From: an uncultured Holophagaceae bacterium
GTDB taxonomy: Bacteria; Acidobacteriota; Holophagae; Holophagales; Holophagaceae
Assembly: GCA_903937385.1 (NCBI GenBank)
Contig: CAIZZF010000028.1
Coordinates: 1-35,735, forward strand
DNA: 35,735 nt
Direction: 5' to 3'
Within the stretch, counting starts at the first letter, position 1, and every line of letters begins with the position of its first letter. Positions 601 to 26,162 of the stretch are shown piece by piece. The notes under the pieces were generated by a model that saw only the letters and a program-made list of their open reading frames with translations, had not been told where the DNA came from and did not search any database. The translations under genes were made by a program, and so were the position numbers.

Positions 601-719
601 CACTTTGGCCCCACGCGAGCCTTTTTCCAAGGCGCGAAGGTCTGTCGAGTCAATTACCTGGACAGATGCCAAAGGGTGCCGAACGCTTGGTATGCTGATC
701 CTTCCCCCCAAGGAGCACC

Positions 720-1586: not shown

Positions 1587-2467
1587 AGGGTCGCCCCGAC
1601 TGCCCCCGCTGTCAGGGGCAGGGCCTGGTCTTCGATCCGGATCCCCTGAAGCCCGTGCGGGTCTGCGGCTGCACCGCGGACCTGGCGCCGGATGCCGAGA
1701 CCCTGGGCCTGCCCGCCCGCTACCGAGAAGCGGACTTCGCCCGCTTCTGGAAGTGGTGGAACAACGTCCAGGCGAGCACTGCCCGGACCCTGCTCAACCG
1801 CGTCGGCGAGCTGGAGGACCTGCTGGCCCGTCCCCCCGAGGAAGTGGGGGAGCTGGAGGGTAGGGATGACCTGGTGAAGCTGCTCGCCGCCCTCCGCAAG
1901 CGGCCCGAGCACGGCATCCGCCCCGCGGGCGCCGAGAGCCTGTCCCAGTGGGCCACGGCCGGCAAGCACAAGTTCCGGCATGGCTGGGAGCTGTGGTGGA
2001 TCCACGGCCCCGCCCAGAGTGGCCGCAGCACCCTGGCCGCCGCCGCGCTGCGGGCCTGGACCGAGCGCACAGGTCGGGGCGGGCGCTTCGTGTCCGTGCG
2101 CACCCTCAGTCAGGCCATCAAGGATTCCTACTACGACGTGCGTAGCTTCCAGAACCAGTCCTTCCAGAGCGTCCGCGATCTCATCGAGCCCCTGCAGGAG
2201 CCGGCCCTGCTGGTGCTGGACGACTGGGATCGCATGGACTCGGATCTTCGCGTCGCCGCGGCCCTGGCTCAACTGCTGGACCACCGCTACAGCGCCGAGC
2301 TGCCCACCATCCTCACGGCCGCCGGGCCGCCCGAGGCCATCGACCGCCGGGAGAACCATCCCCTGGCCCGCCTGGATGACAGCAGCCTGCTGGAGCGCCT
2401 GCGGGGCGCCGAGCGGGTGGAGATGGTGCCGGCCCTGAAGCCCTGGTTCGACCGCGTCGAGCGATGA
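1583..2467 (+). CDS. DnaC/DnaA-like P-loop ATPase with N-terminal zinc-ribbon cysteines
   Basis: A 294-residue protein. The N-terminus has a possible zinc knuckle (CPRC at 7-10 and CGC at 28-30). Residues 138-300 look like a DnaC/DnaA-type ATPase: WIHGPAQSGRST (139-150) at the Walker A position and ALLVLDDWDRMD (208-219) as Walker B. The invariant Walker A lysine is arginine here (GPAQSGRST), so ATP hydrolysis may be weak or absent. DnaC-like proteins load helicases; this one might instead be a regulator that uses the fold. It is coupled by ATGA overlaps to the sigma factor before it and the exporter after it. The family is recognised only at fold level; no specific function is assigned. Confidence 0.75.
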   Translation: MKGRPDCPRCQGQGLVFDPDPLKPVRVCGCTADLAPDAETLGLPARYREADFARFWKWWNNVQASTARTLLNRVGELEDLLARPPEEVGELEGRDDLVKLLAALRKRPEHGIRPAGAESLSQWATAGKHKFRHGWELWWIHGPAQSGRSTLAAAALRAWTERTGRGGRFVSVRTLSQAIKDSYYDVRSFQNQSFQSVRDLIEPLQEPALLVLDDWDRMDSDLRVAAALAQLLDHRYSAELPTILTAAGPPEAIDRRENHPLARLDDSSLLERLRGAERVEMVPALKPWFDRVER

Positions 2468-5013: not shown

Positions 5014-6071
5014 ATCCACTGAACGACATCCTCCAGGCCCGCCTCGCGGAAGGCCCTGTCCCCGCCTCGGAGGTCATGGCCCTGGGTCTCTACCACCGGG
5101 AGCACGGCTACTACCGGCGCGCGGAAGGTCCCTGGGGCTTCGAGGGCAAGGACTACTACACGGCCCTGGACCTGGGGCCGCTGCTAGGCCAGACGCTGGC
5201 CGTGCGCCTCGAGGCCGCCTGGGAGCGCCTGGACCGGCCGGCACGCTTCACCGCCCTGGAGCCCGGCGCCGGACGCGGCTGGCTGGGCCGGGATCTGCTG
5301 ACTGCGGTCTCGGGCCCCTTCGCCGAGGCCCTGGTCTACGTCCACCGCGACGACAACCCCGCGGCAAGGCAGGCCGCGGAAGCGGCCCTGGCGCCCTTCC
5401 TATCCGCAAATCGCGCGCGATTTGTCGCCGAAGCCGAAGCGCTGGAGCCGTTCGTGGGCGCGGTCTTCAGCAACGAGCTGTTCGACGCCCTGCCCGCGCA
5501 GCCCTGGCGCTGGGACGGCAGCCAGTGGACGCGGGAGGTGCTGACGACGGTCGGCCAGGAGTGGCAGGCGGCCGATCCCGGCGAGGCCGGGGCCTGGTTC
5601 GCGGCCCACACCGACGGGCTCGAGCTCCGGGACGGCAGCATCTGGTGCGAGGCCCTGCCCGGCGTGGTGCGCGAACTGGCGGCGCCCCTGGAGGCGGGCC
5701 TGTTCCTGGCGGTCGACTACGGCGAGGCTGCGGACCGGCTGCTGGCCAAGGGCGCGGACCTGCGGCGCTTCATGGCCCACAGCGTGGACGGCAAGTGGCA
5801 CGAGAACCTAGGCGAGGCGGACCTGACAGCGGATGTCGACTTCACCCGGCTGGCCTCCCTGCTGGAGGGCCAGGGTCTGACGGAGCTCTCTCACGTGGAG
5901 CTCAGCCGCTGGATCCGGGCCCACGCTCCCCTGGACGAGTGGGGCGCCGGGTGGCTCGCCCTGCCCACCCCCGAGCGCATGCGGCGCACCGAGAACCTCC
6001 TGCAGCTCACCCTGCCCAACATGATGGGCAGCCGGTTCCGCGTGCTCGAGGGCTGGAAAGCTCAGGGTTGA
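5010..6071 (+). CDS. MidA/NDUFAF7-family SAM-dependent methyltransferase (DUF185)
   Basis: A 353-residue protein. Family marks in order: YYTALDLGPLLGQ near residue 50 (the DUF185 N-terminal signature), the SAM-binding loop ALEPGAGRGWLGRDLL (about 85-100), SNELFDALPAQPW (about 152-164) and VDYGEAADRLL (about 233-243). In mitochondria the homologue NDUFAF7 methylates an arginine of a complex I subunit; bacterial members are annotated only as class I methyltransferases. The start ATG overlaps the exporter stop, making this the last gene of the coupled operon. The gene downstream is convergent, with about 50 bp between and no strong terminator hairpin. Its link to a sigma factor and an MMPL exporter is unexplained. 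Confidence 0.86.
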   Translation: MNPLNDILQARLAEGPVPASEVMALGLYHREHGYYRRAEGPWGFEGKDYYTALDLGPLLGQTLAVRLEAAWERLDRPARFTALEPGAGRGWLGRDLLTAVSGPFAEALVYVHRDDNPAARQAAEAALAPFLSANRARFVAEAEALEPFVGAVFSNELFDALPAQPWRWDGSQWTREVLTTVGQEWQAADPGEAGAWFAAHTDGLELRDGSIWCEALPGVVRELAAPLEAGLFLAVDYGEAADRLLAKGADLRRFMAHSVDGKWHENLGEADLTADVDFTRLASLLEGQGLTELSHVELSRWIRAHAPLDEWGAGWLALPTPERMRRTENLLQLTLPNMMGSRFRVLEGWKAQG

Positions 6072-6121
6072 TCGGAAACAGGCAGTCGGTTCACCCCGCC
6101 GGCTGACCCCCGCCCTCTTGT

Positions 6122-8026
6122 TCAGGGCCGGGGCCAGACGCCGACCTCCAGGGCGCTGGGCCGCGCGGCATCGTGGAAGACCGTGTGGGTGGCGGCCTGA
6201 TAGTCGCCGGGCTTCGCCTTGTTGATGTCAGTGAAGACCTGAGGATTGCGGTCCATGAGGGGGAACCAGCTGCTCTGGAGCTGCAGCATGATCCGGTGCC
6301 CCTTGCGGAAGGTGTGGCAGATGTCGTTCATGGACCAGGCCACGCGGGTAGGCCGCCCGGGGACGAAGGGCTGGGGGTGCTCCAGGCTGTCGCGGTACTT
6401 GCCCCGCATGACCTCGCCGCGGACCAGCTGCTCGTAGCCGCCCATGGGGTTGGGCGTGCGCTCCCATAGCGACCCGCCCTCCTTGAAGTCCGGGTTCCGG
6501 TAGGCGTCCGGGTGCACGTCGATGAGCTTCACCACCCAGTCCGCGTCAGTGCCAGTCGTGGCCACGAAGAGCTCCGGCCGCAGGGGGCCGGCGAAGGTGA
6601 GGTCCTCGGTCAGGGGGCCCGTCTGGAACACCAGCACGTCCCGGCGGCGCCCGGCGAAGCGCTGGTCGGCGGTCATGTACTCCCGGGGCATGCCGATGGC
6701 CAGCTGCTCGGTGAAGGGCACGGGCTTGGCGGGGTCCGAGAGAAAGCTGTCGGCGCCGCCGTCAGTGGGGGGCGGCTCGAAGGCCAGCAGCCCCTTCGGT
6801 TGGAGGAAGAGCCGGGCGGCGCGGACGGTCCTGGGGGGCCAGCTCTCCAGGCGATGCCAGTGATTGGCGCCGGTCTCGAAGACCGTGGCCTTGGTCAGCG
6901 CGGGGTCCGGAGTGCCCTTCAGGTGGTGCATGAAGAAAGGGAACAGCACCTCGGCCTGGAACCAGTCGGAGGTGGCCGCGCCGAACTGCACTGGGCCCAG
7001 GTGGTCGCCCCTGCCGCGCTCCCAGCCGCCGTGGAACCAGGGCCCCATGACCAGGTGACTGTCGGTGCCGGGGCTCTGGCGGTCCAGGGTCTTGGCCAGC
7101 TGGAGCGAGCCAAAGAGGTTCTCGGCGTCGAACCAGCCGCCCACGGTGAGCACCGCGGGCTTGACGCCTTTCATCTGCGGTCGCAGGTTGCGGCCCTGCC
7201 AGAAGGCATCGTAGTCGGGGTGGTCCAGCATCTCGTTCCAGAAGGCCACGTCCGCCGTGAACTGGCGGGTGGCGGCCGTGCTGCCCAGGCGCAGGAACCA
7301 GGCATAGCCATCGGAGGTGCCGTGCCGGAAGGGGGTCGGCCAGCTCGGGCTGGGGCCTTGGCGGGGCTTGCCGAAGTTCACCATGAAGTTGAACGCATGG
7401 GGCAGCCAGAGGGCACCGTTGCGGTGGAAGTCGTCGCCCTGGAACCAGTCCATGATGGGCGCCTGGGGCGAGACAGCCTTGAGGGCCGGGTGGCCCGAGA
7501 GCATGCCCACAGCGGCGTAGAAGGCTGGGTAGCTGATGCCCCACTGGCCCACCTTGCCGTTGTGGCGCTCGGTGTTCCGCAGCAGCCAGTCGAGGGTGTC
7601 GCTGGTGTCGGTGCTCTCGTCCACGGCGGCGCCGGTCACCTTGCGCTGGGGGCGCAAGTTCACGAAGTCGCCCTCGGACATCTGGCGGCCGCGCACGTCC
7701 TGGTAGACGAAGATGAAGCCCTCCTGCTGGAAGCGGGGTGAAGGCCCCAGCTGCGCGGGGAAGGCCTCGGCGCCGTAGGGCCCCACGCCGTAGGGGGTGC
7801 GCTGCAGGAGGAAGGGGTAGCTGTGCGTCAGGTCCTTCGGGGTGTAGATGGCCGTGAAGAGCTTCACGCCGTCCCGCATGGGGATCAGCACTTCGCGCTT
7901 GCTGTAGCGGTCGCGGAGTGGGGCTGTGGCCGCGACCGGGACCGCCTGCCGGGCGTGCAGAACAGGCGGGAGTCCGCCCAGCAGCAGCAACAGCAGGACA
8001 GCAGCGCGCAGGACGCGGAGCGGCAT
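6122..8026 (-). CDS. Secreted CocE/NonD-family hydrolase (X-Pro dipeptidyl-peptidase-like)
   Basis: A 634-residue protein with a leucine-rich signal peptide (residues 1 to about 25, ending LHARQA), so it is exported. The alpha/beta-hydrolase domain carries the nucleophile elbow QWGISYPAFYAA (Ser165), VGGWFDAENLFGS (Asp300) and the histidine in MGPWFHGGW (His332). The C-terminal part is the beta-rich domain usual for CocE/NonD and PepX enzymes (WVVKLIDVHPDA to MLQLQSSWFPLMDRNPQ). Family members cleave esters, beta-lactam acyl groups or N-terminal Xaa-Pro dipeptides; the substrate cannot be told from sequence. It is a single gene convergent with the operon on its right-hand gene side and divergent from aguA, which starts about 160 bp away. 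Confidence 0.9.
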   Translation of the reverse strand: MPLRVLRAAVLLLLLLGGLPPVLHARQAVPVAATAPLRDRYSKREVLIPMRDGVKLFTAIYTPKDLTHSYPFLLQRTPYGVGPYGAEAFPAQLGPSPRFQQEGFIFVYQDVRGRQMSEGDFVNLRPQRKVTGAAVDESTDTSDTLDWLLRNTERHNGKVGQWGISYPAFYAAVGMLSGHPALKAVSPQAPIMDWFQGDDFHRNGALWLPHAFNFMVNFGKPRQGPSPSWPTPFRHGTSDGYAWFLRLGSTAATRQFTADVAFWNEMLDHPDYDAFWQGRNLRPQMKGVKPAVLTVGGWFDAENLFGSLQLAKTLDRQSPGTDSHLVMGPWFHGGWERGRGDHLGPVQFGAATSDWFQAEVLFPFFMHHLKGTPDPALTKATVFETGANHWHRLESWPPRTVRAARLFLQPKGLLAFEPPPTDGGADSFLSDPAKPVPFTEQLAIGMPREYMTADQRFAGRRRDVLVFQTGPLTEDLTFAGPLRPELFVATTGTDADWVVKLIDVHPDAYRNPDFKEGGSLWERTPNPMGGYEQLVRGEVMRGKYRDSLEHPQPFVPGRPTRVAWSMNDICHTFRKGHRIMLQLQSSWFPLMDRNPQVFTDINKAKPGDYQAATHTVFHDAARPSALEVGVWPRP

Positions 8027-8184
8027 CAGGACCCCCGGGGATTGGGCCTCATGTTACGCGGTATTTTGCTCCGCGGTGGGCTTGACGGGGGCGCCGACCC
8101 CCATTCCGCTCGACGGGGCGCCCGGCTTTTGCTGAACTGGAGGGTGCGTCCCGCGTCGGGGCGCCGCGCCAGGAACCACCTCCC

Positions 8185-9210
8185 ATGACTCAAGCCACCG
8201 TGCAGCAGCCCGCCGAATGGGAACGTCACAGCGCCTGCTGGCTGGCCTGGCCCAGCCACGGCCACCTCTGGCAGGAGAACCTGGCTCCGGCCCAGGCCGA
8301 GTTCACGGGTCTCTGCCTGGCCATCGCCGAGCAGGGCGGCGAAGCCCTGGAGCTGCTGGTGCAGGATGCCGCCGCCGAGGCCCAGGCCCGCGCGGCTCTG
8401 GCTCCCGTGCTGGAGAAGGTGCGGTTCCATCAGGTGCCCGTGGGCGACATCTGGCTGCGGGACACGGCGCCGATCTTCGTGCGGGAGGGGTCCGGCGCCC
8501 TGGGGGCCGCCTGCTTCCGCTTCAACGGCTGGGGTGGGAAGTATGTCCTGCCCGGCGATGACCAGGTCGCAGGCCGCGTGGCCGCCCTGAGCGGCGTTCC
8601 GGCGCGGGTCCACGACTGGATCCTGGAGGGCGGCTCCATCGAGGCCGATGGCGAGGGCACCCTGCTCACCACGCGCCAGTGCCTGCTCAACCCCAACCGC
8701 AACCCGGGTCTGGACGAGGCTGGGATCGAGGCGGCGCTGCGCACGGACCTGGGCGCGGAGAAGGTGCTCTGGCTGGACGAGGGCCTGCTCAACGATCACA
8801 CCGACGGTCACATCGACACCCTGGCCCGGTTCGTGGCGCCGGGCGTGGTGGTCTGCATGGAGGCCCGCGAGGCGGACGATCCCAACGCCGCCACCCTGGA
8901 CCGGCTGGCAGCGGACTTGGCCGCCTGCACCGACGCCCGGGGCCGCCGCCTGCGGGTGCTGCGCATCCCCTCGCCCGGGGTGCTGCTGGACGACGAGGGC
9001 GAGCCGATGCCGGCCAGCTACGTGAACTTCTACCTGGGTAACCGCAGCGTGGTGGTGCCGACCTACGGCACGCCCTACGACGAGGCGGCCCTGGCCGCCC
9101 TGGCTCCGCTGTTCCCAGGGCGCCGGGTGGTGGGCCGCTCGGCCCGTGCCATCCTGAGCGGGGGCGGTGCCTTCCACTGCATCACCCAGCAGCAGCCGGA
9201 GGTCCCATGA
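8185..9210 (+). CDS. aguA: Agmatine deiminase
   Basis: A 341-residue enzyme of the guanidine-modifying fold that converts agmatine to N-carbamoylputrescine and ammonia. The active-site marks are present: DIWLRDTAP, LEGGSIEADGEG, NDHTDGHIDTLARFV (with the catalytic His) and the C-terminal GGGAFHCITQQQP, whose Cys332 is the nucleophile. The GGG(N/A)xHC(I)TQQ(I/Q)P ending is typical of AguA rather than protein-arginine deiminases. ATG 8185 has AGGA at 8171-8174. Its stop overlaps the start of aguB (ATGA, 9207-9210), so the two pathway steps are co-translated. No arginine decarboxylase is in the window, so agmatine is either taken up or made from genes elsewhere. Confidence 0.95.
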   Translation: MTQATVQQPAEWERHSACWLAWPSHGHLWQENLAPAQAEFTGLCLAIAEQGGEALELLVQDAAAEAQARAALAPVLEKVRFHQVPVGDIWLRDTAPIFVREGSGALGAACFRFNGWGGKYVLPGDDQVAGRVAALSGVPARVHDWILEGGSIEADGEGTLLTTRQCLLNPNRNPGLDEAGIEAALRTDLGAEKVLWLDEGLLNDHTDGHIDTLARFVAPGVVVCMEAREADDPNAATLDRLAADLAACTDARGRRLRVLRIPSPGVLLDDEGEPMPASYVNFYLGNRSVVVPTYGTPYDEAALAALAPLFPGRRVVGRSARAILSGGGAFHCITQQQPEVP

Positions 9211-10061
9211 GCCCGTCGAGCACCGTCCGCGTCGCCGCCACCCAGTGCGCCTTCACCGCCAGCCTCGAGGAGAACGTGGCCCGGGTGGAGGGCCTCGTGC
9301 GCCGGGCCGCGGCCCAGGGCGCCCAGGTGATCCTGCCCTCGGAGCTGTTCGAGGGCCCCTACTTCTGCCGTGAGGAGAAGGACGAGTTCTTCGACCTCGC
9401 CCGTCCCGTCGAGGGCCACCCCACCCTCGCCCGCTTCCAGGCCCTGGCCCGGGAGCTGGGGGTGGTGATTCCCGTGTCCTTCTTCGAGCGCGACGGCCAT
9501 GCCCACTACAACAGCCTGGCCATGGTGGACGCGGACGGCGCCCTGCTCGGCGTCTACCGCAAGAGCCACATCCCGGACGGTCCCGGCTACGAGGAGAAGT
9601 TCTACTTCCGTCCTGGCAACACCGGCTTCAAGGTCTGGCCCACGCGCTTCGGCCGCCTGGGGGTGGGCATCTGCTGGGACCAGTGGTACCCCGAGTGCGC
9701 CCGGGCGATGATGCTGCTGGGCGCCGAGATCCTCCTCTACCCCACGGCCATCGGCACCGAGCCCGAGACCCCGGAGCTGGATACCAAGGACCTGTGGCAG
9801 CGGGCCATGATCGGCCACGCGGTGTCGAACGTGGTGCCCGTCGTGGCCTCCAACCGCATCGGGACTGAAGGCGACCAGACCTTCTATGGCCACTCCTTCA
9901 TCGCCAGCCACCGCGGTGAACTGGTGGCGGAGCTGGGCCGCACCGACACGGGGGTCATCCTCGCAGACCTGGACCTGGAGGAGATCCGCCGCAACCGCGC
10001 CTCCTTCGGCTTCTTCCGGGACCGCCGGCCGGACCTCTACGGCATCCTGGCCGAGCGGTAG
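9207..10061 (+). CDS. aguB: N-carbamoylputrescine amidase
   Basis: A 284-residue nitrilase-superfamily enzyme that hydrolyses N-carbamoylputrescine to putrescine, CO2 and ammonia. The catalytic triad is visible: Glu46 in LPSELFEGPYFC, Lys119 in YRKSHIPDGPGYEEKFYF and Cys156 in GVGICWDQWYPE. The ELFEGPYFC and DGPGYEEKFYFRPG segments are specific to the AguB/plant NLP1 branch. It is coupled to aguA by an ATGA overlap. Length matches the family (about 290). A convergent chemoreceptor gene ends five bases after the stop, so the two transcripts must run into each other. Confidence 0.95.
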   Translation: MSPSSTVRVAATQCAFTASLEENVARVEGLVRRAAAQGAQVILPSELFEGPYFCREEKDEFFDLARPVEGHPTLARFQALARELGVVIPVSFFERDGHAHYNSLAMVDADGALLGVYRKSHIPDGPGYEEKFYFRPGNTGFKVWPTRFGRLGVGICWDQWYPECARAMMLLGAEILLYPTAIGTEPETPELDTKDLWQRAMIGHAVSNVVPVVASNRIGTEGDQTFYGHSFIASHRGELVAELGRTDTGVILADLDLEEIRRNRASFGFFRDRRPDLYGILAER

Positions 10062-10065
10062 TCGG

Positions 10066-11250
10066 CTAGACCCGGAACTGCCCCACCTGCTGGTTCTGGT
10101 CCTCGGCGACCCGGGCCAGCTCGGCGGCGGTGCGGGCGACCTCGGCCACGGTCTGGGCCATCTGGCCGGTGGCCGCGGCGTTGTGGGCCACCCGGTCCAG
10201 GTTCACATCCACCTGCTCAGCCACCTCGGCGCTGGTGCGGGCCTGCTCATCCGCGGCGGCGCCCACCTCGAGCAGTACCGAGGCCAGGCCCTGGATGCTG
10301 GACTCGATGGTGCCCAGGGCGGTGACCGTGGCGGCGACCATCTCGGCGCCCTGGGTCACGGAGGTGTTGCTGCGCTCGATGAGCTCTCCGATCTCGCGGG
10401 CCGCGGCGCCGCTGCGCTCGGCCAGCTTCCGGACCTCCTCGGCCACCACCGCGAAGCCCTTGCCCATGGCGCCGGCCTTGGCGGCCTCGATGGCGGCGTT
10501 CAGAGACAGCAGGTTCGTCTGTCGGGCGATGTCCTGGATCAGCCGCACGGCCGCCACCATGCTGGAGGTGGCGAGGCGGATGTCCTCCATGGCCTGGGCG
10601 CTGGCGGCTCCGGCCTGGGCGCCCTGCTGCACCGCAGCCACGGCGGACGCGGATTCCTGCCGGGAGCGCTGGAGGTTTTCCGAGACCTGCTCGATGGAGG
10701 CGGAAAGCTCCGTGACCGCCGCGGCGACCCGCTCGAAGGCGGCCCGCTGGGCCTCGGAGTTGCCGGCCAGGCTCGCGCTGGTGGCGGCCATCTGCTCGCT
10801 GGAGGCGGAGAGCTCGGTCGCGCCACTGGCCACGGAGCCCGAGGTGCTGATCAGGCTCTGGAAGATGCTCCGGATCCGCGCGTTGTAGCTGTTGAAGGCC
10901 GAAGCGACCGCGCCGATCTCGTCCTGGCTGTCGACCGGAAGCTGCAGGGTCAGGTCGCTTCGGCTCAGCCCCTCGGCGAGGGCCTGCAGGGGCCGGGTGA
11001 TCCAGAGGCTCACCCGGTAGACCACGGTGAAAGTGAGCATCCAGAGCACGAAAGAGATCAGGAAGTCGAAGAGGAAGGCCCGCCAGGGGCCCTTGGCGAG
11101 GTCGATCCCGCCCTGCAGCAGCCCCTGCTCCCGCAGCTGGCCATAGAGGGTCCAGGTCTCGTGGATGTTGAAGCAGGCGTAGCCCAGCACCGGGGGCAGG
11201 ATCATCAGCAGGAGCTTCCCGCGCACGCTCAGGCGACTGGACAGAGACAT
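10066..11250 (-). CDS. Methyl-accepting chemotaxis protein
   Basis: About 394 residues. Two TM segments lie near the N-terminus (roughly 13-35 and 58-80) with only a short loop between them, so there is almost no periplasmic sensor. A HAMP-like segment follows ([18 protein letters not shown]... [11 protein letters not shown]), then a long coiled-coil signalling domain whose hairpin tip is [34 protein letters not shown]. Such MCPs sense through the membrane, cytoplasm or a partner. ATG 11250 is preferred because CGGGAG lies six bases upstream; an in-frame ATG at 11292 adds 14 residues but has no visible ribosome site. No che genes are in the window. The C-terminus lacks a CheR-binding pentapeptide. 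Confidence 0.92.
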
Positions 11251-11319
11251 GGGGGCTCCCGGAGGGACCTCGAACCAGGCCCACTCTTTCATCGGATCTC
11301 AAGGGGGGTTACCTGATAA

Positions 11320-12492
11320 TCAGCCCAGCAGCTTCAGGGTGTCGTCCAGAATCCGGATCACGCTGAGGATATGGAAAGGCTCGACGACCAGGTAGTCCAC
11401 GGCGCCGGCGGCCATGGCCCGGTTCCGCTTGAGGTCGAACCCCTCGTCGGTGCCCGCCAGCAGGATGGGGAGGGGACACTTCTCCTGCTGGATCAGGCGC
11501 CCGCAGCGCTCCAGCGAGGTGCCGGCGCGCTGGCGATGGTGGATCAGCACCAGCTTGATGCGACCCCACTCGCCCTCCCCGGCGCCCAGCGCCGCCAGCG
11601 AGGGCAGCACGGGTCCCTTCATGAGGTCCAGGGCGGTGACGCCGAACTTCCGCCCGACGGCCTCCGCCAGCCGCGCTGGGAAGGCCTCCTCGCCCGCCAG
11701 GACCAGCAGCATCGGGTCCCGGTCCACGAGGATCTTCGGCAGGGCCGCCGGAGGGGCGGTCTCCCGGCGGGGGACCAGGCGGGCCGACTCCATGCCTCCC
11801 GGGACGAAACGGGACAGGTCACGCTGGGCTTGGTGGTGCTTGGCCTCCATGAGCCACTGCCGGTAGCGGCTCAGCCGCTTCTTGTCGGCGGACTCGGTGA
11901 TGCGCAAGCCCCAGACCCGATCGCCGAAGTAGGCCACCCGCATGGGCAGGGCCAGGTTCTCGCCGATGGCCGCCCGCAGCTCCACGGAGGTGGTCGCGTT
12001 CAGCCTCAGCATGTCGCCGAGGATCCGGGTGGCCTCGGGCGGCGCCAGCTCCAGGCCGTCCTCCCCAAAGGCCAGGGCGAAGCCATCTTGCACGTTGTTC
12101 TGCTGGTCCGCGAAGGGGCAGGGCACAGGTCGGTCGGGGGCGTATTCCGCCAGCCGGTGCGTGTCCAGGGCCCGGAGGAGGCGCGGCATGGCGACGTGGC
12201 AGGCCTCGGTGCCGTGGAACTTGCCGTGACCCTGCAGGTCCACCACAGCCTCGTAGGGCAGGCCCCGGTCCAGCAGGTGCAGGGTGACCCGGGAGCCCGG
12301 CTTCAGGCCCCACTGCCCCCGGCCCAGGTCGGAGATGCCGAGGACCACCCGGTCGGAAGCCTCGGCCAGCACCCGGAAGTCCCCGCGGAAGTGGCCGAAG
12401 ATCAGGCTGACCGTCCCCTCGTCCTCACACAGCCGCTGGAAGACCATGCGGATGGCCTCGTGCTGGTCCTTGTTGAGGCTCGTGGTGCCCAT
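11320..12492 (-). CDS. PilZ/YcgR-like protein fused to a degenerate receiver domain
   Basis: About 390 residues. The first half has the beta-rich pattern of YcgR/PilZ proteins (VSLIFGHFRGDFRVLAEA..., then FALAFGEDGLELAPPEATRILGDML), but the c-di-GMP-binding arginine motif RxxxR is not clear. The last 125 residues (from about ILVDRDPMLLVLAGEE) follow a CheY-like alternation, ending GAVDYLVVEPFHILSVIRILDDTLKLLG. At the phospho-acceptor position the strand reads LVLIHHRQ instead of LxLDxxMP, and the conserved lysine before PF is glutamate (VEPF), so it probably cannot be phosphorylated. ATG 12492 was chosen; an in-frame TTG at 12510 is possible. It lies downstream of meaB on the same strand with about 30 bp between. 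Role unknown; a c-di-GMP or protein-interaction role is only a guess. Confidence 0.7.
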   Translation of the reverse strand: MGTTSLNKDQHEAIRMVFQRLCEDEGTVSLIFGHFRGDFRVLAEASDRVVLGISDLGRGQWGLKPGSRVTLHLLDRGLPYEAVVDLQGHGKFHGTEACHVAMPRLLRALDTHRLAEYAPDRPVPCPFADQQNNVQDGFALAFGEDGLELAPPEATRILGDMLRLNATTSVELRAAIGENLALPMRVAYFGDRVWGLRITESADKKRLSRYRQWLMEAKHHQAQRDLSRFVPGGMESARLVPRRETAPPAALPKILVDRDPMLLVLAGEEAFPARLAEAVGRKFGVTALDLMKGPVLPSLAALGAGEGEWGRIKLVLIHHRQRAGTSLERCGRLIQQEKCPLPILLAGTDEGFDLKRNRAMAAGAVDYLVVEPFHILSVIRILDDTLKLLG

Positions 12493-12521
12493 GGCCGCTT
12501 CATCGGGCAAAGCCCCTGGAA

Positions 12522-13460
12522 CTATAGTTTGTCGAGGAGCTCCGCCACGACCGAGTAGGGGTCCCGGACCCGGTCGGCGATGGCCTGGATGCCCGCCTCC
12601 ACCCAGGGGGCGCCCACGCGGGCCTTGGCCCGACGCGAGGCGGCCTCGGCCAGGAGGGACTCAAAGCGCAACCGGGCCCGCTCCCGGGCCTTGCGCTCCA
12701 GTCCGCCGTGCGCCCGGAGCCACAGGCCGTGTTCCCGGATCCGGGCGATGAGCTCCGGGATGCCCTGGCCCTGCTGAGCCACCGTGCGCAGCACCGGGGG
12801 ATCCCAGGGCCGGACACAAGACAGGGACTTCATGGCCTCGATGCCCTGCTCCACCTGATCGGCCCCGTCCCGGTCCGCCTTGTTGATCACGAACAGGTCA
12901 GCCACTTCCATGATGCCGGCCTTGATGGCCTGGATCTCGTCGCCCATGCCCGGGACCAGGACCACGCAGCAGGTCTGGACGCAGCTCACCACGTCCACCT
13001 CGTCCTGCCCCACGCCCACGGTCTCGACCAGGATGGTGTCGTAGCCTGCGGCATCCAGCAGGTCGATGGCGTCCTGGGTGGCCCGCGCCAGGCCGCCGAG
13101 GGCGCCCCGGGTGGCCATGCTGCGGATGAAGATGCCCGGATCCGCCGCGCACCGGCCCATGCGGATGCGATCGCCCAGGATGGCCCCGCCACTGAAGGGG
13201 GAGGTGGGATCCACGGCCAGGATCCCCACCTTCTGGCCTTCGGCCCGCAGCGCCCGGGCCAGCTGGTCCGTCAGGGTGCTCTTGCCGGCCCCGGGGGAAC
13301 CCGTGATGCCGACCACGGCGGCCCGCCCCAGGTGCGGCCAGAGGGCGGACATGAGCTCCCGGGCGCCGGGGTGGCCGTTCTCCATCCAGGAGATGGCCCG
13401 GCCCAGGGCTCGGGCCTCGCCGCGGCGCAGGGGTTCGAGGAGTTCGGCACTGGGAGACAT
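12522..13460 (-). CDS. meaB: Methylmalonyl-CoA mutase-associated GTPase MeaB
   Basis: A 312-residue G3E-class P-loop GTPase. The Walker A loop is GITGSPGAGKST (51-62); the family signature VDPTSPFSGGAILGDRIRM follows, then SMATRGALGGLARA, VETVGVGQDEVDV (G3 region) and VINKADRDGADQ (the NKxD guanine-specificity motif). MeaB/ArgK proteins gate cobalamin loading and protect methylmalonyl-CoA mutase or related B12-dependent acyl-CoA mutases. The mutase subunits are not in this window. The start ATG 13460 faces the zinc-ribbon gene across a 106-bp divergent gap that should hold both promoters. Confidence 0.95.
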   Translation of the reverse strand: MSPSAELLEPLRRGEARALGRAISWMENGHPGARELMSALWPHLGRAAVVGITGSPGAGKSTLTDQLARALRAEGQKVGILAVDPTSPFSGGAILGDRIRMGRCAADPGIFIRSMATRGALGGLARATQDAIDLLDAAGYDTILVETVGVGQDEVDVVSCVQTCCVVLVPGMGDEIQAIKAGIMEVADLFVINKADRDGADQVEQGIEAMKSLSCVRPWDPPVLRTVAQQGQGIPELIARIREHGLWLRAHGGLERKARERARLRFESLLAEAASRRAKARVGAPWVEAGIQAIADRVRDPYSVVAELLDKL

Positions 13461-13566
13461 GCGCCCAGGATGCCAGACAAGGCCCCTGGGTCGGAGCGGA
13501 ACTCGCGCCCCGGGTCGGGTTGGGGTACCCTAGCCTCTCGGCACAGGCCGGACTGGAACCAACACC

Positions 13567-13971
13567 ATGAAAAAAGGGCCTCTTTCCATGAGCGATCCCG
13601 CGGCTGGGGATTCGGCTCCCGCTGCGGCCCCAAAGCCTGCACCCGTGCTTCTCACGAAGCGCGTCGCGGTCGCGCCGCCGGACCCCGCTGCCCCCCGGGA
13701 GAAGATCTGCTCCGAGTGCGGCGTGCACTTCCGCGTCGAGCAGGGCCAGAAGTTCTACCTCTGCCCGGACTGCTACCGGCGGTCCTTCGTCTACAAGCGC
13801 AAGGGCGGCCAGGAGACGGCCCGCATCCTGACCCACATCACCTGCGCCAGCTGTGGGGCCACGGAGTACCTGCCCTTCATCCCCGAGGACCCAGCCAAGG
13901 CCCTCTGCCGAGCCTGCTTCGCCAAGGCGCGCCCGGAACAAAAGCCCGCTCCCCGACACCCTCATCGATAG
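13567..13971 (+). CDS. CxxC-x17-CxxC zinc-ribbon protein
   Basis: A 134-residue protein with a disordered, Ala/Pro-rich N-terminus and two zinc ribbons: Cys48, 51, 66, 69 and Cys93, 96, 114, 117. The second has exactly 17 residues between its CxxC pairs (ITCASCGATEYLPFIP then ALCRACF), the layout of the CxxC-x17-CxxC domain family of unknown function. The linker YRRSFVYKRKGGQETA is basic, so nucleic-acid binding is possible but not shown. An in-frame ATG at 13588 (MSDPAAG) could be the true start. It is 13 bases upstream of the next gene, likely in one transcript. Confidence 0.72.
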   Translation: MKKGPLSMSDPAAGDSAPAAAPKPAPVLLTKRVAVAPPDPAAPREKICSECGVHFRVEQGQKFYLCPDCYRRSFVYKRKGGQETARILTHITCASCGATEYLPFIPEDPAKALCRACFAKARPEQKPAPRHPHR

Positions 13972-13984
13972 CTCCGAGGTTTCC

Positions 13985-15127
13985 ATGCGCCTGCGCCTTT
14001 TGCCCCTCCTGCTCGTCGCCACCTTCCTGCCTGCCCAGGCCCCGACCAAGGCTGCCCCCAAGGCGCCTGCCAAGCCTGCGGCTGCCAAGGCTGCCCCCAC
14101 CAAGCCGACCCCCGAGGCTGAGACCGCCCGCCGCGCCCTGCGGGAGACCCTCGACGCCATCGACGCCGCCTGGTTCGGCCAGGCCTACCAGGGGGTCACC
14201 TCGGTGGAGCTCCAGGGCACCCTGGGCATCGCCCTCAGCGGAGCCGCCGTGAACCAGAAGGTCGACAGCCTCAGCCAGGGCCTCGTGCAGGGCAACAGCC
14301 AGGGCGGCCAGACGAACCTCCGGGTCAAGAGCGTCTACTTCGCCAATGGCGATTTCAAGACGGACCTCGCGGGCGACTTCGGGACCATCCTCTTCACCCG
14401 GCGCGGCAACCGTGGCTTCCTCTACAGCAAGGAACAGAACGCCTACACCACCCGGGTGGACCTCCCCCCCCCCGATGCACCGCTGACCTACATGTCCTGG
14501 TTCCGCCAGACCCTGAATGACATCAAGGCGGTCTACATCGATGCCTCCACCTTCAAGCCCAGCCTGGCCGCCGAGGAGACCGTCGAGGGCCGCTCCCTGC
14601 AGCGCCTGGTCTTCACGGCCCCCACCGCAGCCTGGGATGCCAAGAAGCGGGAGCAGACCCTGGCCCAGAGCCTGGGCTTCTGGAAGCGCGGGAAGCTTGA
14701 GGTGGCCGTCGACAAGACCACCAAGCTGCCTGTGCGCCTCGAGTTCCGCAACGACGACCAGGGCGTGCACACCCGCATGGACTTCAGCTATGGCGAGAAG
14801 GGCCGCCTCCAGGCCGTCAACATCAGCAACTCCAGCCGGGGCTTCGAGGGACCGGGCTGGCTGCGCATCGGCTACGGCGGCGATGGCCGCATGTCCAACG
14901 TCGCCGGTGAGCTGAGCCCGGGCTCGGGCAAGCGCGTGTCCTTCGCCATGGACCTCGCCTGGTCCAAGACCCGCAGCGCCAGCGAGCTCGCCGCCGTTCC
15001 CCCCGCCGGCGCCACCAAGCGCGGTCGCGAGGACATGGAGACCCAGCTGGTCCTGGGCCTCGCCGCCAAGATCTTCGACCTCCAGCGCGCCGGCCTGAAC
15101 GTGCGCAGCGTCGTCATCGGCAAGTAA
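13985..15127 (+). CDS. Exported hypothetical protein with Ala/Pro/Lys-rich linker
   Basis: A 380-residue protein with a signal peptide (MRLRLLPLLLVATFLPAQA), then a low-complexity linker rich in KAAPKAPAKPA repeats (about 20-45), then a beta-rich body. The body has features of the LolA/LolB-like or DUF-type periplasmic lipid-carrier fold (AYTTRVDLPPP, GKLEVAVDKTTKLPVRLEFRN, THRMDFSYGEKGR-like strands), but I cannot name a family firmly. ATG 13985 has GAGG six bases upstream. It carries a run of ten C at 14464-14473 in the body (VDLPPPD); the frame is intact in this copy, but the tract could slip. The preceding zinc-ribbon gene is 13 bp away. Confidence 0.72.
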   Translation: MRLRLLPLLLVATFLPAQAPTKAAPKAPAKPAAAKAAPTKPTPEAETARRALRETLDAIDAAWFGQAYQGVTSVELQGTLGIALSGAAVNQKVDSLSQGLVQGNSQGGQTNLRVKSVYFANGDFKTDLAGDFGTILFTRRGNRGFLYSKEQNAYTTRVDLPPPDAPLTYMSWFRQTLNDIKAVYIDASTFKPSLAAEETVEGRSLQRLVFTAPTAAWDAKKREQTLAQSLGFWKRGKLEVAVDKTTKLPVRLEFRNDDQGVHTRMDFSYGEKGRLQAVNISNSSRGFEGPGWLRIGYGGDGRMSNVAGELSPGSGKRVSFAMDLAWSKTRSASELAAVPPAGATKRGREDMETQLVLGLAAKIFDLQRAGLNVRSVVIGK

Positions 15128-15160
15128 CCCGAAGGCCCTGCCCCGGCGAAAGGGGGCGTC

Positions 15161-15562
15161 ATGTGGCGAAGAGCTCTCGTCGTTTCTGCCGCCCTCGGTG
15201 GCTCCTTCTCCTGTCGGACGCTGCTCCTTTTCTCTCCTCCCCCGCCCTGGGTAGTCGAGGCCGAGGCCGAGGTGCGCCGCACCCGGCACGCCTTTTTTGA
15301 CCGGGCCAGCGAGCTTGTCGCGAACCTGGATGACCGGGTTTCGGATGCACCCAGCCTTGCCTTGGCCCTCACGAACGCCTGTGCGCCGGAATACGACGCC
15401 TACGCCAAGGCAAGGTCGGTTCTGGCAGGGCCGACGGATAGGCAGCGCGAAAGCAAGCGGCGGGCCTTGGACCACCCGAAGGAGAAAAGCAGAGCAGCCC
15501 TGCCCATCGTGCTGGCCCACCGGGCGGGCAAGCCGCTCAAGCGGAGGGACTACACAGGGTGA
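15161..15562 (+). CDS. Small exported hypothetical protein
   Basis: A 133-residue open frame with a hydrophobic N-terminus (MWRRALVVSAALGGSFSC...LLLF), possibly a signal peptide or anchor, and a helical charged body (VEAEAEVRRTRHAFFDRASELVANLDD, then ALTNACAPEYDAYAKARSVL). A GGGGG ribosome site lies just upstream of ATG 15161, and it follows the previous gene by 33 bp on the same strand. No family is recognised. Amino-acid composition of the central part looks like real protein, whereas the antisense frames are arginine- or serine-rich shadows. The region downstream decays into non-coding sequence, so this could also be the last gene before a rearranged zone. Confidence 0.5.
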   Translation: MWRRALVVSAALGGSFSCRTLLLFSPPPPWVVEAEAEVRRTRHAFFDRASELVANLDDRVSDAPSLALALTNACAPEYDAYAKARSVLAGPTDRQRESKRRALDHPKEKSRAALPIVLAHRAGKPLKRRDYTG

Positions 15563-15698
15563 TTGCCCGGCCCCCTGCTGCCCTCCAACCCTGCCGCCTG
15601 CGCTGCCTCTCAGGACTGTCTGGGCGTGGCGCTTCCTGGTAGCCATCTACTCAGGGATGGGTGGGTCCGGCTGCGGAGGTAGGCCTGGAGATCCTGGC

Positions 15699-15734
15699 GC
15701 CGCCGATGAGCGGGGTCAGGTTGATGTCCACCAT
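15699..15734 (-). pseudogene. ExbD/TolR N-terminal remnant
   Basis: On the minus strand the frame reads RRGAMVDINLTPLI and then GGARISRPT. MVDINLTPLI is the hallmark start of ExbD/TolR proteins, where it should run on into DVxLVLLIIFM; here the match stops abruptly and no TM segment follows. I read it as the stump of an exbD-type gene cut by deletion or rearrangement. The match is only ten residues, so chance is possible. Confidence 0.33.
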
Positions 15735-15858
15735 GGCGCCGCGTCTGGATCCTGGGGTGAAGGCCGTGTTGCTCCTGGGCTGAGGGTTTCAGCCTGACCG
15801 CAAGGCGGTAGCGGGAGGCGACGGTGAAGTTGGGGTTGCCATCGGTGAAAGGTGTGAT

Positions 15859-15883
15859 AATTTTTTGTCTACGACAAAAAATT
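15859..15883. promoter_or_regulatory. Perfect inverted repeat AATTTTTTGTC-TAC-GACAAAAAATT
   Basis: Two 11-bp arms (15859-15869 and 15873-15883) match perfectly around a 3-base spacer. It lies about 155 bp upstream of the triple-RidA start in the first AT-rich stretch after GC-rich host DNA. The TTGTC-N3-GACAA core has the look of a dimeric repressor operator (GntR/TetR-like); as RNA it could instead form an A/U-rich hairpin. No regulator gene is adjacent. Confidence 0.45.
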
Positions 15884-15904
15884 TTAGACACGCACCCTTT
15901 CCCG

Positions 15905-15914
15905 CCCCCCCCCC
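15905..15914. repeat. Homopolymeric C10 tract upstream of triple-RidA gene
   Basis: Ten consecutive C between the palindrome and the triple-RidA gene, about 125 bp before its start. Tracts of this length can change length by slippage and so vary promoter spacing; they are also a common place for sequencing error. Confidence 0.6.
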
Positions 15915-16039
15915 ACCCACAGGTCCCCATGAGCTAATCCCGCTAGGACATACGGGTCCTGATCCCCAGCACTTGCATCTCAGCATTTTTATTCTTTATT
16001 TTTTTCCATTAACTTCGAACTAACGAAGGAAAATCTTAC

Positions 16040-17311
16040 ATGAGTGGCTATAACGCAGTACTCGCCAGAAATACGGGAAAAGCTCCCAGGGGAATTGGTC
16101 CCTATTCTCAAACGGTAGCTTTCTCTCATTACAATAATCTCTCCGCTCAATTGCCGATCGATCCAAAAACCGGCAAAAAGGTGGCCGGTGGTATCAAGGA
16201 ACAGGCTGGGCAGTGTTTTAAAAATATTAAGGCAATTCTGGAGAGCATCAACCAGGCTATGAGCGACGTGGTCAGGATCAGTGTTTTCGTAAAAAACATC
16301 AAAGATGTAGAAGCCGTTGATGAAGTTTATAGAACCTTCTTTCCCTGCTATGTCCCCACCCGTACGGTGGTCGCTGTTGCAGCATTGCCCATGAACGCTT
16401 TGGTGCAGATCGAAGCTCTTGTCTCAAACGGTGTCGGCACCATTCCAAACGCACCCCAGGCAGGCGATCTCATCAAGCTCACAAACAACACGGCAAATGC
16501 ACCGATAAGCACGCTATCTACACAGGCGGTAGCCTTTTCTCATTACAACAATCTCTCAGCTCAATTACCTATCGATCCAAAATCCGGTAGAGTGGTCGCT
16601 GGTGGTGCAAAAGAACAGGCTGGACAATGCTTAAAGAATATCAAGGCCATTTTAGAAAGTATCGACGTTCCTATTGATGATATTGTTAAAATTAACATAT
16701 TTCTTAAAAATTTCTCGGATATTGAAACGATAAACGAAGTATATACAACCTTTTTCCCGGACTCGGCCATTGCCAGGGCCGCAGGCTATGTTCCTGCGCG
16801 GACAACCATTGCCGCTTCAGGTTTACCGATGGATGCTTTGGTGCAAATCGAAGCCGTGGTGTCCCACGGAGATGGCACACCCCCGCAAGTCCTTGAAGAC
16901 AGGCATCGGCTGGTCATGGAACCAAACAACACGAAAAATGCACCGAACTGTTCTCTCTCTACACAAACGGTGGCTTTTTCTCATTACAACCATCTTTCCG
17001 CCCAATTACCCTTGGATCCGAAAACGGGTAAAGTGGTCGCCGGTGGCGTAAAAGAGCAGGCAAGACAGTGCCTGAAAAACATCAAGGCCATCGTGGGAAG
17101 CATCGACCACCGCATGGATGACGTGGTCAAAGTGAATATCTTCCTTAAAAACATCGCAGATATAGATGCTGTCGACGAAGTCTACACAACCTTCTTCCCG
17201 GACGGTGTTCCTGCCCGCAGAACCGTTGGCGTAGCAGCCATACTTGAAGATGCCTTGGTCCAAATTGATGTGATTTTATCAAACGCTGAAAGCACCCCGC
17301 CAAAGGCGTAG
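16040..17311 (+). CDS. Triple-domain RidA (YjgF/UK114) protein
   Basis: A 423-residue protein made of three tandem RidA domains (about 1-131, 140-277, 290-415). Each has SQTVAFSHYNNLSAQLP-type opening, IDPKTG..VAGG.KEQ, then VFLKN..D...VDEVYTTFFP, then VPxRT.....LPMDALVQIEA. Single-domain RidA hydrolyses reactive enamine/imine intermediates; its catalytic arginine is kept in all three (Arg108, 254, 393/394). Only domain 1 keeps GPYSQ, and the usual SGQ strand is SAQ throughout. Single-domain RidA is about 130 residues and forms a trimer, so this chain could fold as a covalent trimer. RBS GAAGGA precedes ATG 16040. Codon use is AT-rich and unlike neighbours, which suggests transfer. Confidence 0.93.
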   Translation: MSGYNAVLARNTGKAPRGIGPYSQTVAFSHYNNLSAQLPIDPKTGKKVAGGIKEQAGQCFKNIKAILESINQAMSDVVRISVFVKNIKDVEAVDEVYRTFFPCYVPTRTVVAVAALPMNALVQIEALVSNGVGTIPNAPQAGDLIKLTNNTANAPISTLSTQAVAFSHYNNLSAQLPIDPKSGRVVAGGAKEQAGQCLKNIKAILESIDVPIDDIVKINIFLKNFSDIETINEVYTTFFPDSAIARAAGYVPARTTIAASGLPMDALVQIEAVVSHGDGTPPQVLEDRHRLVMEPNNTKNAPNCSLSTQTVAFSHYNHLSAQLPLDPKTGKVVAGGVKEQARQCLKNIKAIVGSIDHRMDDVVKVNIFLKNIADIDAVDEVYTTFFPDGVPARRTVGVAAILEDALVQIDVILSNAESTPPKA

Positions 17312-17398
17312 AGAAGCAGACTGCTGGACCCCCTGTTGGTGGACTTCACCCCATTCCACCGCAGGGGGTTTATGGTTCTTGGGTACCAGGAGGCTCCC

Positions 17399-17719
17399 AT
17401 GAAGCCAAGGCAGAACCTTGACGCCCTGATCGCAAAGCACCCGGAGATCTGCGAGGCCTACGCCCGGTTTGGGAAGGCGGTCCACGACCAGGGTGGGCCC
17501 CTGGACGAGAAGACCCGCTGGCTCGTGAAAGTGGCCGTGTCGGCCACGGTGGGCATCGCCAAGGCCCAGCTCACCCACATGATCAAGGCCCGGGAGGCGG
17601 GCTGCACGCCGGACGAGATCGAGCACACCCTCCTGCTCATCGCTCCAACAGCAGGCTTTCCCCGCATGATGGAGGCCATGGAGCGCTTCCGGGACTTCCT
17701 GAAGGAGTCCTCGACTTAG
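17399..17719 (+). CDS. Carboxymuconolactone decarboxylase (CMD/AhpD-like) family protein without CxxC
   Basis: A 106-residue all-helical CMD-family protein (LDEKTRWLVKVAVSATVGIAKAQLTHMIKAREAGCTPDEIEHTLLLIAPTAGFP, quoted in pieces: core 35-88). The redox-active members have CxxCxxxH; here those positions are Ile53, Ala56 and His60, so only the histidine is kept and peroxidase activity of the AhpD type is unlikely. AGGAGG sits five bases before ATG 17399; an upstream in-frame start at 17336 would add a poorly supported extension. GC-rich, host-like codon use returns here after the AT-rich RidA gene. Its stop overlaps a histidine-kinase scrap on the other strand. Confidence 0.8.
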   Translation: MKPRQNLDALIAKHPEICEAYARFGKAVHDQGGPLDEKTRWLVKVAVSATVGIAKAQLTHMIKAREAGCTPDEIEHTLLLIAPTAGFPRMMEAMERFRDFLKESST

Positions 17720-18018: not shown

Positions 18019-18103
<85 letters not shown>

Positions 18104-24890: not shown

Positions 24891-25958
24891 TTATACGGCT
24901 GCGGCAGCTGCGCTAGGTGGATCGACCATGAGTCCCAACCTGCGCCCCATGGAGTCCTGTGCCCGCCGCTTGTTCTCCAGCGACTGCTCCACATAGATCA
25001 TGGTCGTGGTGATGCTTAGGTGCCCGAGCATGCCCTGTATCTCGGTGATGGGTGTCCCGAACTCGGCATGGAGTGACGCGAAGGTCGCCCGGAGTCGGTG
25101 GGCACTGACTCGACCCAATCCCAGCTTGCCCGCTGCCCGCGCCAGGGGTTTGCGGAGGAAGGCGGGGCGATGCGGGGCACCATCCTCGGCGGGGAACACC
25201 CAGGGACTCAGGGTTCTCGGCATCTGATTGATGGACTCCCACAACCACTGAGGGACCGGGAGGGTACGCGAGGTTTTCGTCTTTGACTTGCCCACGCAGT
25301 AGGTCTGCTGGACGGGGTCGAACCACTCCCAGCGCATGCCCAAAACCTCAGACTCCCGCAACCCGAGACCGATGATGACCCGGATCATGACGGGGACATG
25401 GGGGTTGCGGCTGCGGTCCATCTCCGCCAGGTAGTCAGGCAGGACAGAGGCGGGGACTGTTGGGCGTGGTTTGCGTTGGACCTTGATCTGACTGAACTGG
25501 AAGGGGCGGGACTCCAGGTATCCCAGCTTGATGGCGAACCCCCAGAGGAGGCGGACGGTGCGGACCATCAGGTTGGCAGTCACCGGGGACCGTCCAGCGT
25601 CCAGAATTCCTTGACGGGCATCCAGCATGTCCTGGGTGTTGACCATATCTATCCGCCGATCCCCGAGGGAGGGCACCACCCAGAGGCGCATGCAGCCTTC
25701 CACGCTGACTAGGTGCTTGGTGCTGAATACGGTGCGGCGGACTTCCAACCATTGCGTCAGCAGTTCTCTGACCGTGGGCATGCGGTGGAACATTCCCCGC
25801 AGGGACAGGGCAACCTCCCGCCGCTTGTCTGCCAGTAGCTTCTCGGCGGTCGCATGGTCCGTGACATGGGTGCTGCCCCGAAAGACCTTGCCCTCCACCT
25901 TGAAGCAGTAGTGCCAATACCGCCCGACACGACCGAGACCGTTCCTGAACTTCGCCAT
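24891..25958 (-). CDS. int: Tyrosine-type integrase of the element
   Basis: A 355-residue phage-type integrase. An N-terminal arm-binding/SAM-like part (to about residue 160) precedes the catalytic domain with Arg201 (GLGLRESEVLGM), the HxxR box (SAHRLRATFAS, His287 and Arg290), His313 (MLGHLSITTT) and the nucleophile Tyr322 (MIYVE). ATG 25958 is taken because GGGAG sits upstream; the ATG at 26006 has no site. The gene lies just inside the right repeat, reading away from it, the standard arrangement for an integrase beside attR. It should act at the tRNA-Pro repeats. Confidence 0.95.
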   Translation of the reverse strand: MAKFRNGLGRVGRYWHYCFKVEGKVFRGSTHVTDHATAEKLLADKRREVALSLRGMFHRMPTVRELLTQWLEVRRTVFSTKHLVSVEGCMRLWVVPSLGDRRIDMVNTQDMLDARQGILDAGRSPVTANLMVRTVRLLWGFAIKLGYLESRPFQFSQIKVQRKPRPTVPASVLPDYLAEMDRSRNPHVPVMIRVIIGLGLRESEVLGMRWEWFDPVQQTYCVGKSKTKTSRTLPVPQWLWESINQMPRTLSPWVFPAEDGAPHRPAFLRKPLARAAGKLGLGRVSAHRLRATFASLHAEFGTPITEIQGMLGHLSITTTMIYVEQSLENKRRAQDSMGRRLGLMVDPPSAAAAAV

Positions 25959-26032
25959 GACCTTCTCCCTGGGTTGGGCGAAGGGCAGTTCTTGGGGGTC
26001 AGGCATCCCACGCAGGGGTCCCAGGAGCAGGT

Positions 26033-26077: not shown

Positions 26078-26162
<85 letters not shown>

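Follow-up and report, generated by a model that had tools for sequence, protein, structure and literature searches.

In RidA the active clefts lie at the interfaces between neighbouring subunits (PMC1884159, PMC7311433). The locus examined here raises the question of what becomes of such clefts when three RidA domains are carried on a single chain. The window, the whole stretch of 35,735 nucleotides that was analysed, comes from an uncultured Holophagaceae bacterium, and on its forward strand, at 16040-17311, an ATG-initiated gene encodes a protein of 423 amino acids. A putative ribosome-binding site visible in the sequence, GAAGG (16025-16029, forward strand), ends 10 nt before the ATG, and a search of 15700-17500 for a consensus sigma-70 promoter found none.

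A gene with three RidA domains

The protein matches the Pfam family PF01042 in three stretches (E 3.1e-76; 253.6 bits against a cut-off of 27.3), and the gene contains a threefold direct DNA repeat of 281 nt, in which two copies share 64% and 75% of their bases with the third. These two observations bear out the proposal, made in a sequence-only reading of this DNA, that three tandem RidA domains occupy the 423-residue chain. At the protein level the domains are 63-68% identical to one another (81/120, 76/121 and 81/123 positions). Their cores, all on the forward strand, span residues 12-129 (16073-16426; bounds that we set around the PF01042 match), 151-274 (16490-16861) and 299-414 (16934-17281), with a first linker at residues 130-150 (16427-16489). 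When the genome was searched with PF01042, three matches fell within the 16040-17311 frame and one single-domain RidA was found elsewhere; the latter keeps both the motif glycine (TAGQ) and Glu120 (VEIE). As judged from the sequences, both the three domains and purifying selection are shown: dN/dS is 0.10 against L025 and 0.08 against both L026 and L063, values indicating purifying selection; the threefold arrangement itself is far beyond chance.

The architecture itself has been described before. Under the name "3x-RidA", Niehaus et al. (2015) gave EF_0115 of Enterococcus faecalis as an example and presumed a covalently linked trimer (PMC4433059), so that the covalent-trimer design has been in print since that year. 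The window gene shares this architecture and sits in an acidobacterial genome, and a copy from an E. faecalis plasmid matches the window protein at 66.4% identity over query positions 1-421. EF0115 is also among the genes tabulated for the E. faecalis pathogenicity island (PMC3084688), and an intergenic change beside it was recorded in one drug-adapted line (PMC6834293). In a literature search that covered few subscription papers, the name 3x-RidA was found only in PMC4433059 and no functional study was found. Thus, of the possibility raised by the sequence-only reading that this is a common variant with known function, the first half stands, the variant being widespread, while a tested function was not found. 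What the present analysis adds to the printed record is the changed active sites, the unequal retention of arginine, a linker motif, the chorismatase-like models and apparent transfer; changed sites, linker and transfers were not found in the passages of PMC4433059 that were consulted.

The reading closest to that of Niehaus et al. is that the chain is a RidA in covalent form, with three working clefts that act as general 2-imino-acid deaminases and a fusion that merely stabilises the trimer. Consistent with this, the protein scores 293.3 bits against the RidA model TIGR00004, well above the cut-off of 106.25.

Origin and spread of the family

Homologues were collected by scanning genomes with peptides taken from the window protein. 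Of 160 loci the 80 best were retained, a set biased to similar sequences; these are at least 76% identical to the 423-residue query and align over 418-424 positions. Together with the window they make 81 rows from nine named phyla: 60 Bacillota, 6 Pseudomonadota, 5 Bacteroidota, 4 Acidobacteriota besides the window, and 1 each of five others. The closest named relatives of the window protein are from Holophagaceae. On the family tree, which came from a short search and leaves 36 of 78 inner branches open, the Pseudomonadota need six changes and the Bacillota four; it should be emphasized that more than one change is by itself no proof of transfer. The gene is patchily present. In the window's phylum 2 of 149 genomes carry it and in the window's genus 6 of 37, the window's own counted in each case and one of the genus having two copies; in a phylum sample around genome G200 it was found in 6 of 199 genomes, G200 included.

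Base composition points the same way. The gene has a GC content of 0.478 (0.493 at third codon positions), against 0.642 for the window and 0.707 for window positions 1-15600. The gene also lies below its surroundings in other GC-rich hosts (0.454 versus 0.638 in four Acidobacteriota; 0.493 versus 0.680 in an actinomycete), and in the Bacillota it is close to them (0.398 versus 0.370). At the DNA level, eight Clostridium-Neobacillus pairs are among the 25 listed of 366 pairs; six of them are 86-88% identical, with 75-80% identity at fourfold sites, and the two that involve L103 are 80-81% identical. Composition, patchy presence and, more weakly in its detail, the family tree therefore support the horizontal gain that the sequence-only reading had suspected from AT-rich codon use. 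Within the window's group the same adjoining sequence lies beside the gene in five further genomes (L006-L010), and because of this shared sequence and the purifying selection we consider that gain of the gene probably preceded the split of these lineages and that it has been retained since.

A domain tree (132 columns) was built from 20 homologues cut into their domains and 45 single RidAs. A fully supported branch separates the 60 tandem-domain rows from the 45 single RidAs, and first, second and third domains each form a group of their own (support 78, 96 and 97); detail inside the groups means little, since the tree leaves 63 of its 102 inner branches open. The stem branch of the tandem domains is long, at 1.07 changes per column. 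The family fits one triplication followed by repeated horizontal transfer, and both the single origin and the transfer are supported by the trees and by composition, as the pseudo-trimer fold is by the predicted models described below. A single RidA-like match is also present in all 23 of the 3x-RidA genomes tested, which were chosen from the 80 loci, and the host's basic RidA task thus seems to be covered already. Both this last result and the length of the stem branch argue against a chain of three general deaminase clefts.

Site residues, linker and predicted fold

Site residues were tabulated in 20 homologues that we picked for host spread, giving 60 domain copies, and in 45 single RidAs (L001, L011-L024 and L109-L138), a non-random set made up of the best-scoring ones. 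Wider counts refer to the 81 homologues, which include the window and omit L006-L010; L006, L008 and L010 are second fetches of L025, L026 and L063, and L007 and L009 are additional copies that belong to the window's genus. With these five added, the 86 rows hold Arg at the Arg105 position in 79, 77 and 86 cases and Gln at the Glu120 position in 83, 86 and 86 (domains 1, 2 and 3, respectively).

The arginine that had been noted in each domain is indeed the equivalent of Arg105: R108 (16361-16363), R254 (16799-16801) and R393 (17216-17218). It is retained in 74 of 81 first domains, 72 of 81 second domains and all 81 third domains. Fourteen of the 81 homologues lack it in domain 1 or domain 2, L052 and L069 in both, and none lacks it in domain 3; if the 16 losses were spread evenly over three domains, the chance of finding none in the third would be about (2/3)^16 = 0.0015, a value that ignores kinship. 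In Arabidopsis RidA, replacement of this arginine by alanine left 2.2% of activity, and a change at the Glu120 equivalent left at least a quarter (PMC4960622); in Salmonella enterica RidA, alanine at Tyr17 or Glu120 had little effect (PMC4433059). From these mutant data, loss of Arg should silence a cleft, whereas exchange of Glu120 for Gln need not.

Other positions have changed as well. The Glu120 equivalents of the window protein are glutamines (Q123, 16406-16408; Q269, 16844-16846; Q408, 17261-17263), a feature that the sequence-only reading did not mention; Gln occupies this position in 59 of 60 tandem copies, whereas 44 of 45 single RidAs have Glu there. The small effect in S. enterica means that Gln here is by itself no proof of lost function, and that Glu120 is perhaps no strict requirement in RidA. 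The reading was right that SAQ replaces SGQ throughout, at residues 35-37 (16142-16150), 173-175 (16556-16564) and 320-322 (16997-17005): the alanine is present in 60 of 60 tandem copies, preceded by Ser in 59, while 44 of 45 single RidAs have Gly. A second motif, SHYN (residues 29-32, 16124-16135, in domain 1; 16538-16549 and 16979-16990 in domains 2 and 3), is found in all 60 copies; its place is taken in single RidAs by a turn of the Gly/Asn type and by hydrophobic residues. GPYSQ, correctly assigned to the first domain only, spans residues 20-24 (16097-16111) and includes Y22, the Tyr17 equivalent; this position is Tyr in 17/20 first, 0/20 second and 3/20 third domains. At the trimer salt-bridge position, third domains have Lys in 20/20 and second domains in 19/20 (Arg in 1/20), whereas first domains have Arg in 19/20 and Lys in 1/20. 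This is the position of the interface residue Lys136 of Arabidopsis RidA, whose replacement by Ala or Arg was among the most damaging changes (PMC4960622).

Similarity to single-domain RidA extends to the domain fold, Arg105 and the basic interface residue, at 34-41% identity over about one domain (best 14 loci, L011-L024). The differences are the three domains, the exchanges of Glu120 for Gln and of SGQ for SAQ, the SHYN motif, the loss of Tyr17 from domains 2 and 3, and a conserved linker and insert.

The linker joins domains 2 and 3, and its conservation is likewise a feature that the sequence-only reading had passed over. It carries the near-invariant motif SHGDGTPPQxxEDRH (residues 275-289, 16862-16906). 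Across 87 homologues, among them copies from Vibrio, Photobacterium and Enterococcus that are 60-66% identical, 15 of its 24 positions (residues 275-298) are at least 98.5% conserved, namely S275-Q283, E286-H289, N297 and T298. This near-invariant share, 0.63, is the highest in the chain; it is 0.24-0.35 in the domain cores (28/118, 43/124 and 32/116 positions in domains 1, 2 and 3) and 4/21 in the other linker. Mean conservation, however, is 0.892, equal to that of domain 2 and below that of the other linker (0.929). Domain 2 of the window protein also has an insert of eight residues that domains 1 and 3 lack (residues 242-249, 16763-16786), which lies within the conserved segment FFPDSxIAR. 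Such a motif would not be expected if the linker were merely a tie between three equal RidAs.

AlphaFold2 models were obtained for the window protein (pLDDT 71.5, pTM 0.80) and for the homologue L140, which is 66% identical to it (pLDDT 87.3, pTM 0.91); the five models of each vary, with mean pLDDT running from 71.5 to 50.3 and from 87.3 to 67.7, respectively, and parts of the domain 2-3 linker fall below 50 in both proteins. When the highest Foldseek chains were realigned and sorted by Z, the top match of either model was a chorismatase, over residues 29-414 of the window model (Z 24.9, rmsd 3.1, 288 aligned) and 27-413 of the L140 model (Z 27.6, rmsd 2.9, 290 aligned). Chorismatase is a single-chain pseudo-trimer of three RidA-like units. 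The entries 4bps, 5a3k and 5ag3, chains of 331-333 residues, match the models end to end over 288-291 residues (Z 24.6-27.6) at 12-14% identity, whereas single RidAs superpose on one domain only; in Foldseek's own order, among the best 50 of 1091, single RidA-family chains come first. Both predicted models thus match a chorismatase-like single-chain pseudo-trimer fold, and the single-chain trimer that had been suggested for this protein gains support from the pTM values and from the superposition over about 290 residues, from which we infer a ring arrangement. Among 40 PDB sequences at E ≤1e-10, all of them chains of 123-156 residues, no solved 3x-RidA structure was found.

In the L140 list sorted by Z, structures of FBXO22 rank between the chorismatases and the single RidAs; about 250 residues of the model superpose on 8ua3_C and 8s7e_B (Z 15.0, 7% identity), and the single-chain FBXO22 may be distantly related to the pseudo-trimer shape. 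Among viral proteins the best fold match is A0A2U7UCQ5, a YjgF-family protein of 387 residues from Pandoravirus neocaledonia (373 alignment columns, rmsd 11), perhaps another multi-domain Rid protein.

To what extent, then, are the three clefts still equal? The explanation that we favour, and that in our judgement has about an even chance of being right, is that 3x-RidA is an asymmetric, specialised single-chain enzyme of the Rid fold whose chief site is built on Arg393 of domain 3. It draws on the loss of Arg from domain 1 or 2 in 14 of 81 homologues and never from domain 3; on Arg in 19 of 20 first domains at the interface Lys position, an exchange that is damaging in Arabidopsis RidA; on the 15 near-invariant linker positions and the 59 of 60 Glu-to-Gln exchanges; and on the three PF01042 domains, the chorismatase-like models, the domain tree and the single RidA-like match in 23 of 23 genomes. 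The specialised sites proposed by the sequence-only reading find support in this domain-specific conservation. One RidA domain would have been triplicated once to give three copies in a chain that folds as a single-chain pseudo-trimer; the clefts would lie where neighbouring units meet, and would no longer be equal. The working cleft would use the domain 3 arginine, binding a substrate carboxylate as in RidA, and may be assisted by the near-invariant linker and by the insert of domain 2, while the two remaining clefts may have been weakened or given other tasks. As Glu120 is replaced and the Tyr17 loop is changed in domains 2 and 3, the substrate would most likely be a narrower or different carboxylate-bearing imine, enamine or 2-oxo-acid-like metabolite than that of ordinary RidA. 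In this role it would provide accessory damage control alongside the RidA that the host already has.

It could be argued, in contrast, that the clefts remain three equal general deaminases. The window protein retains all three arginines, a basic residue is kept at the salt-bridge position, and S. enterica RidA was little affected by alanine at Tyr17 or at Glu120. The asymmetric interpretation is further weakened by mean linker conservation that does not exceed that of domain 2 or the other linker, by the low pLDDT of parts of the linker, the variation among the five models and the bias of the homologue set to similar sequences, and by gene surroundings in which no substrate, partner or phenotype was found. 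Three equal clefts, however, fit poorly with Arg losses confined to domains 1 and 2, with Gln in 59 of 60 copies, and with the SAQ alanine and SHYN in 60 of 60. We therefore regard three working general clefts as rather unlikely.

A further alternative is that the fold has abandoned imine hydrolysis for new chemistry, as in chorismatase and cyanuric acid hydrolase, with SHYN and the polar residues of the linker (His, Asp, Glu, Asp, Arg, His) acting on another substrate. There is a precedent in AtzD/barbiturase, a likely concatenation of YjgF monomers that acquired a new function and whose Toblerone fold has its active site in the central barrel, with Ser-Lys pairs (PMC3758960); AtzD was not among the 50 fold matches listed. 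The chorismatase at the top of the Z ranking, the near invariance of the linker and the disappearance of Glu120 from nearly all copies would all be explained in this way. The Arg105 equivalents are mostly retained, however, the TIGR00004 cut-off is still exceeded and the gene context points to no other substrate, and we consider such a change of chemistry unlikely. As to chorismatase chemistry itself, Q408 may fall at the place of the active-site Glu of Hyg5, which we take to be the aligned entry, as judged from the ends of the aligned ranges and assuming no gap. In Hyg5 this Glu is Glu-334, and the equivalent change E325Q in Nat-hyg5 abolished products in vivo (PMC7170507). On these grounds 3x-RidA perhaps has the shape of a chorismatase without its catalytic residue.

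That the protein is no enzyme at all, and serves as a ligand sensor, chaperone or binding protein on the RidA fold, has a parallel in the chaperone activity reported for chlorinated E. coli RidA (PMC4284807). The invariance of Arg393, conservation of a site-like kind and the lack of a conserved neighbour as possible partner make this highly improbable. A bolder proposal, which we offer as speculative and rather unlikely, is that 3x-RidA is a third RidA trimer, beside chorismatase and AtzD, to have become an asymmetric enzyme of new chemistry: a mobile stand-alone gene with a site made of the domain 3 arginine, SHYN and the SHGDGTPPQ..EDRH linker, in which general imine deamination has been lost. 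To return to the asymmetric enzyme built on Arg393, the family looks like a natural example of a symmetric homotrimer that was joined into one chain and then lost its symmetry, and it offers three once-equal active sites that can be compared residue by residue.

Surroundings of the gene

No conserved partner gene was found among 573 neighbouring ORFs from 83 loci, the largest cluster of which joins six loci, and a same-strand neighbour within 100 bp occurs upstream in 2 of 80 cases and downstream in 3 of 81. These neighbours are crude longest-ORF calls that include antisense frames, and the 3x-RidA gene itself went uncalled in 2 of 85 loci. At E ≤1e-5, in raw counts from 87 of 147 listed neighbours, 134 Pfam families were matched and none recurred in more than 3 of 87; of ten PADLOC families each was found in 1 of 87. 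The apparent movement between phyla without a partner suggests a useful self-contained reaction. A match of 3x-RidA to the defence protein PD-T4-2_B (PADLOC), the best of three stretches of which covers profile positions 172-290 of 294, the RidA-like part, was set aside and is taken as general RidA similarity. A scan of 13 loci for an RNA leader showed no recurring Rfam family in the gene's vicinity; L031 alone has a match to group II intron domains D1-D4 about 260 nt upstream, together with several tRNA genes.

A noncoding 3' flank, about 85-225 nt long, is common to many copies, most of them from Bacillota (for example L036:6270-6357). Its core was matched at E <1e-5 in 47 of 81 loci, including those of Nitrosospira (L088) and an actinomycete (L094); it is missing from the window. 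Among 366 pairs whose two loci differ in the first word of their titles, the median identity of the flank (0.85) is close to that of the gene (0.88), and the flank therefore seems to travel with the gene. As a structured RNA it was a weak candidate (z -1.55, with 17 of 200 shuffles as good). In a Clostridium (L141:1849-1962; G197:C4, near 169367), a second flank core lies beside about ten RidA-like codons, 90% identical to a RidA domain over 10 residues (E 0.043), the rest of the gene being absent; this is perhaps the remnant of a lost copy.

On plasmid pHLC of Vibrio parahaemolyticus (L105:1793-8245), genes for an APC permease, agmatine deiminase and ornithine carbamoyltransferase precede 3x-RidA, and the opposite strand carries one for carbamate kinase; these neighbours are a possible hint at substrate. 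The E. faecalis plasmid copy is near genes of the aminotransferase and ornithine cyclodeaminase families. Related regulator-like genes, forming one cluster, lie upstream of and divergent from the gene in L042, L048, L050 and L053; MerR and GyrI-like drug-binding families were each matched in 2 of 87 neighbours, which we take to be the two of these four loci that were scanned.

The window gene lies just outside a probable genomic island. A tRNA-Pro(TGG) and its flanks are duplicated at 18019-18103 and 26078-26162, identical at 85 of 85 bases, and a phage-type integrase is encoded at 24891-26006 on the reverse strand, just before the second copy. For the 3x-RidA gene itself, no empty site was shown in the congeners L150 and L151, which keep the next gene and in which only that gene matches. 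In the relative L026, which is without the island, about 450 nt of other sequence leads from the tRNA to the counterpart of window position 28573.
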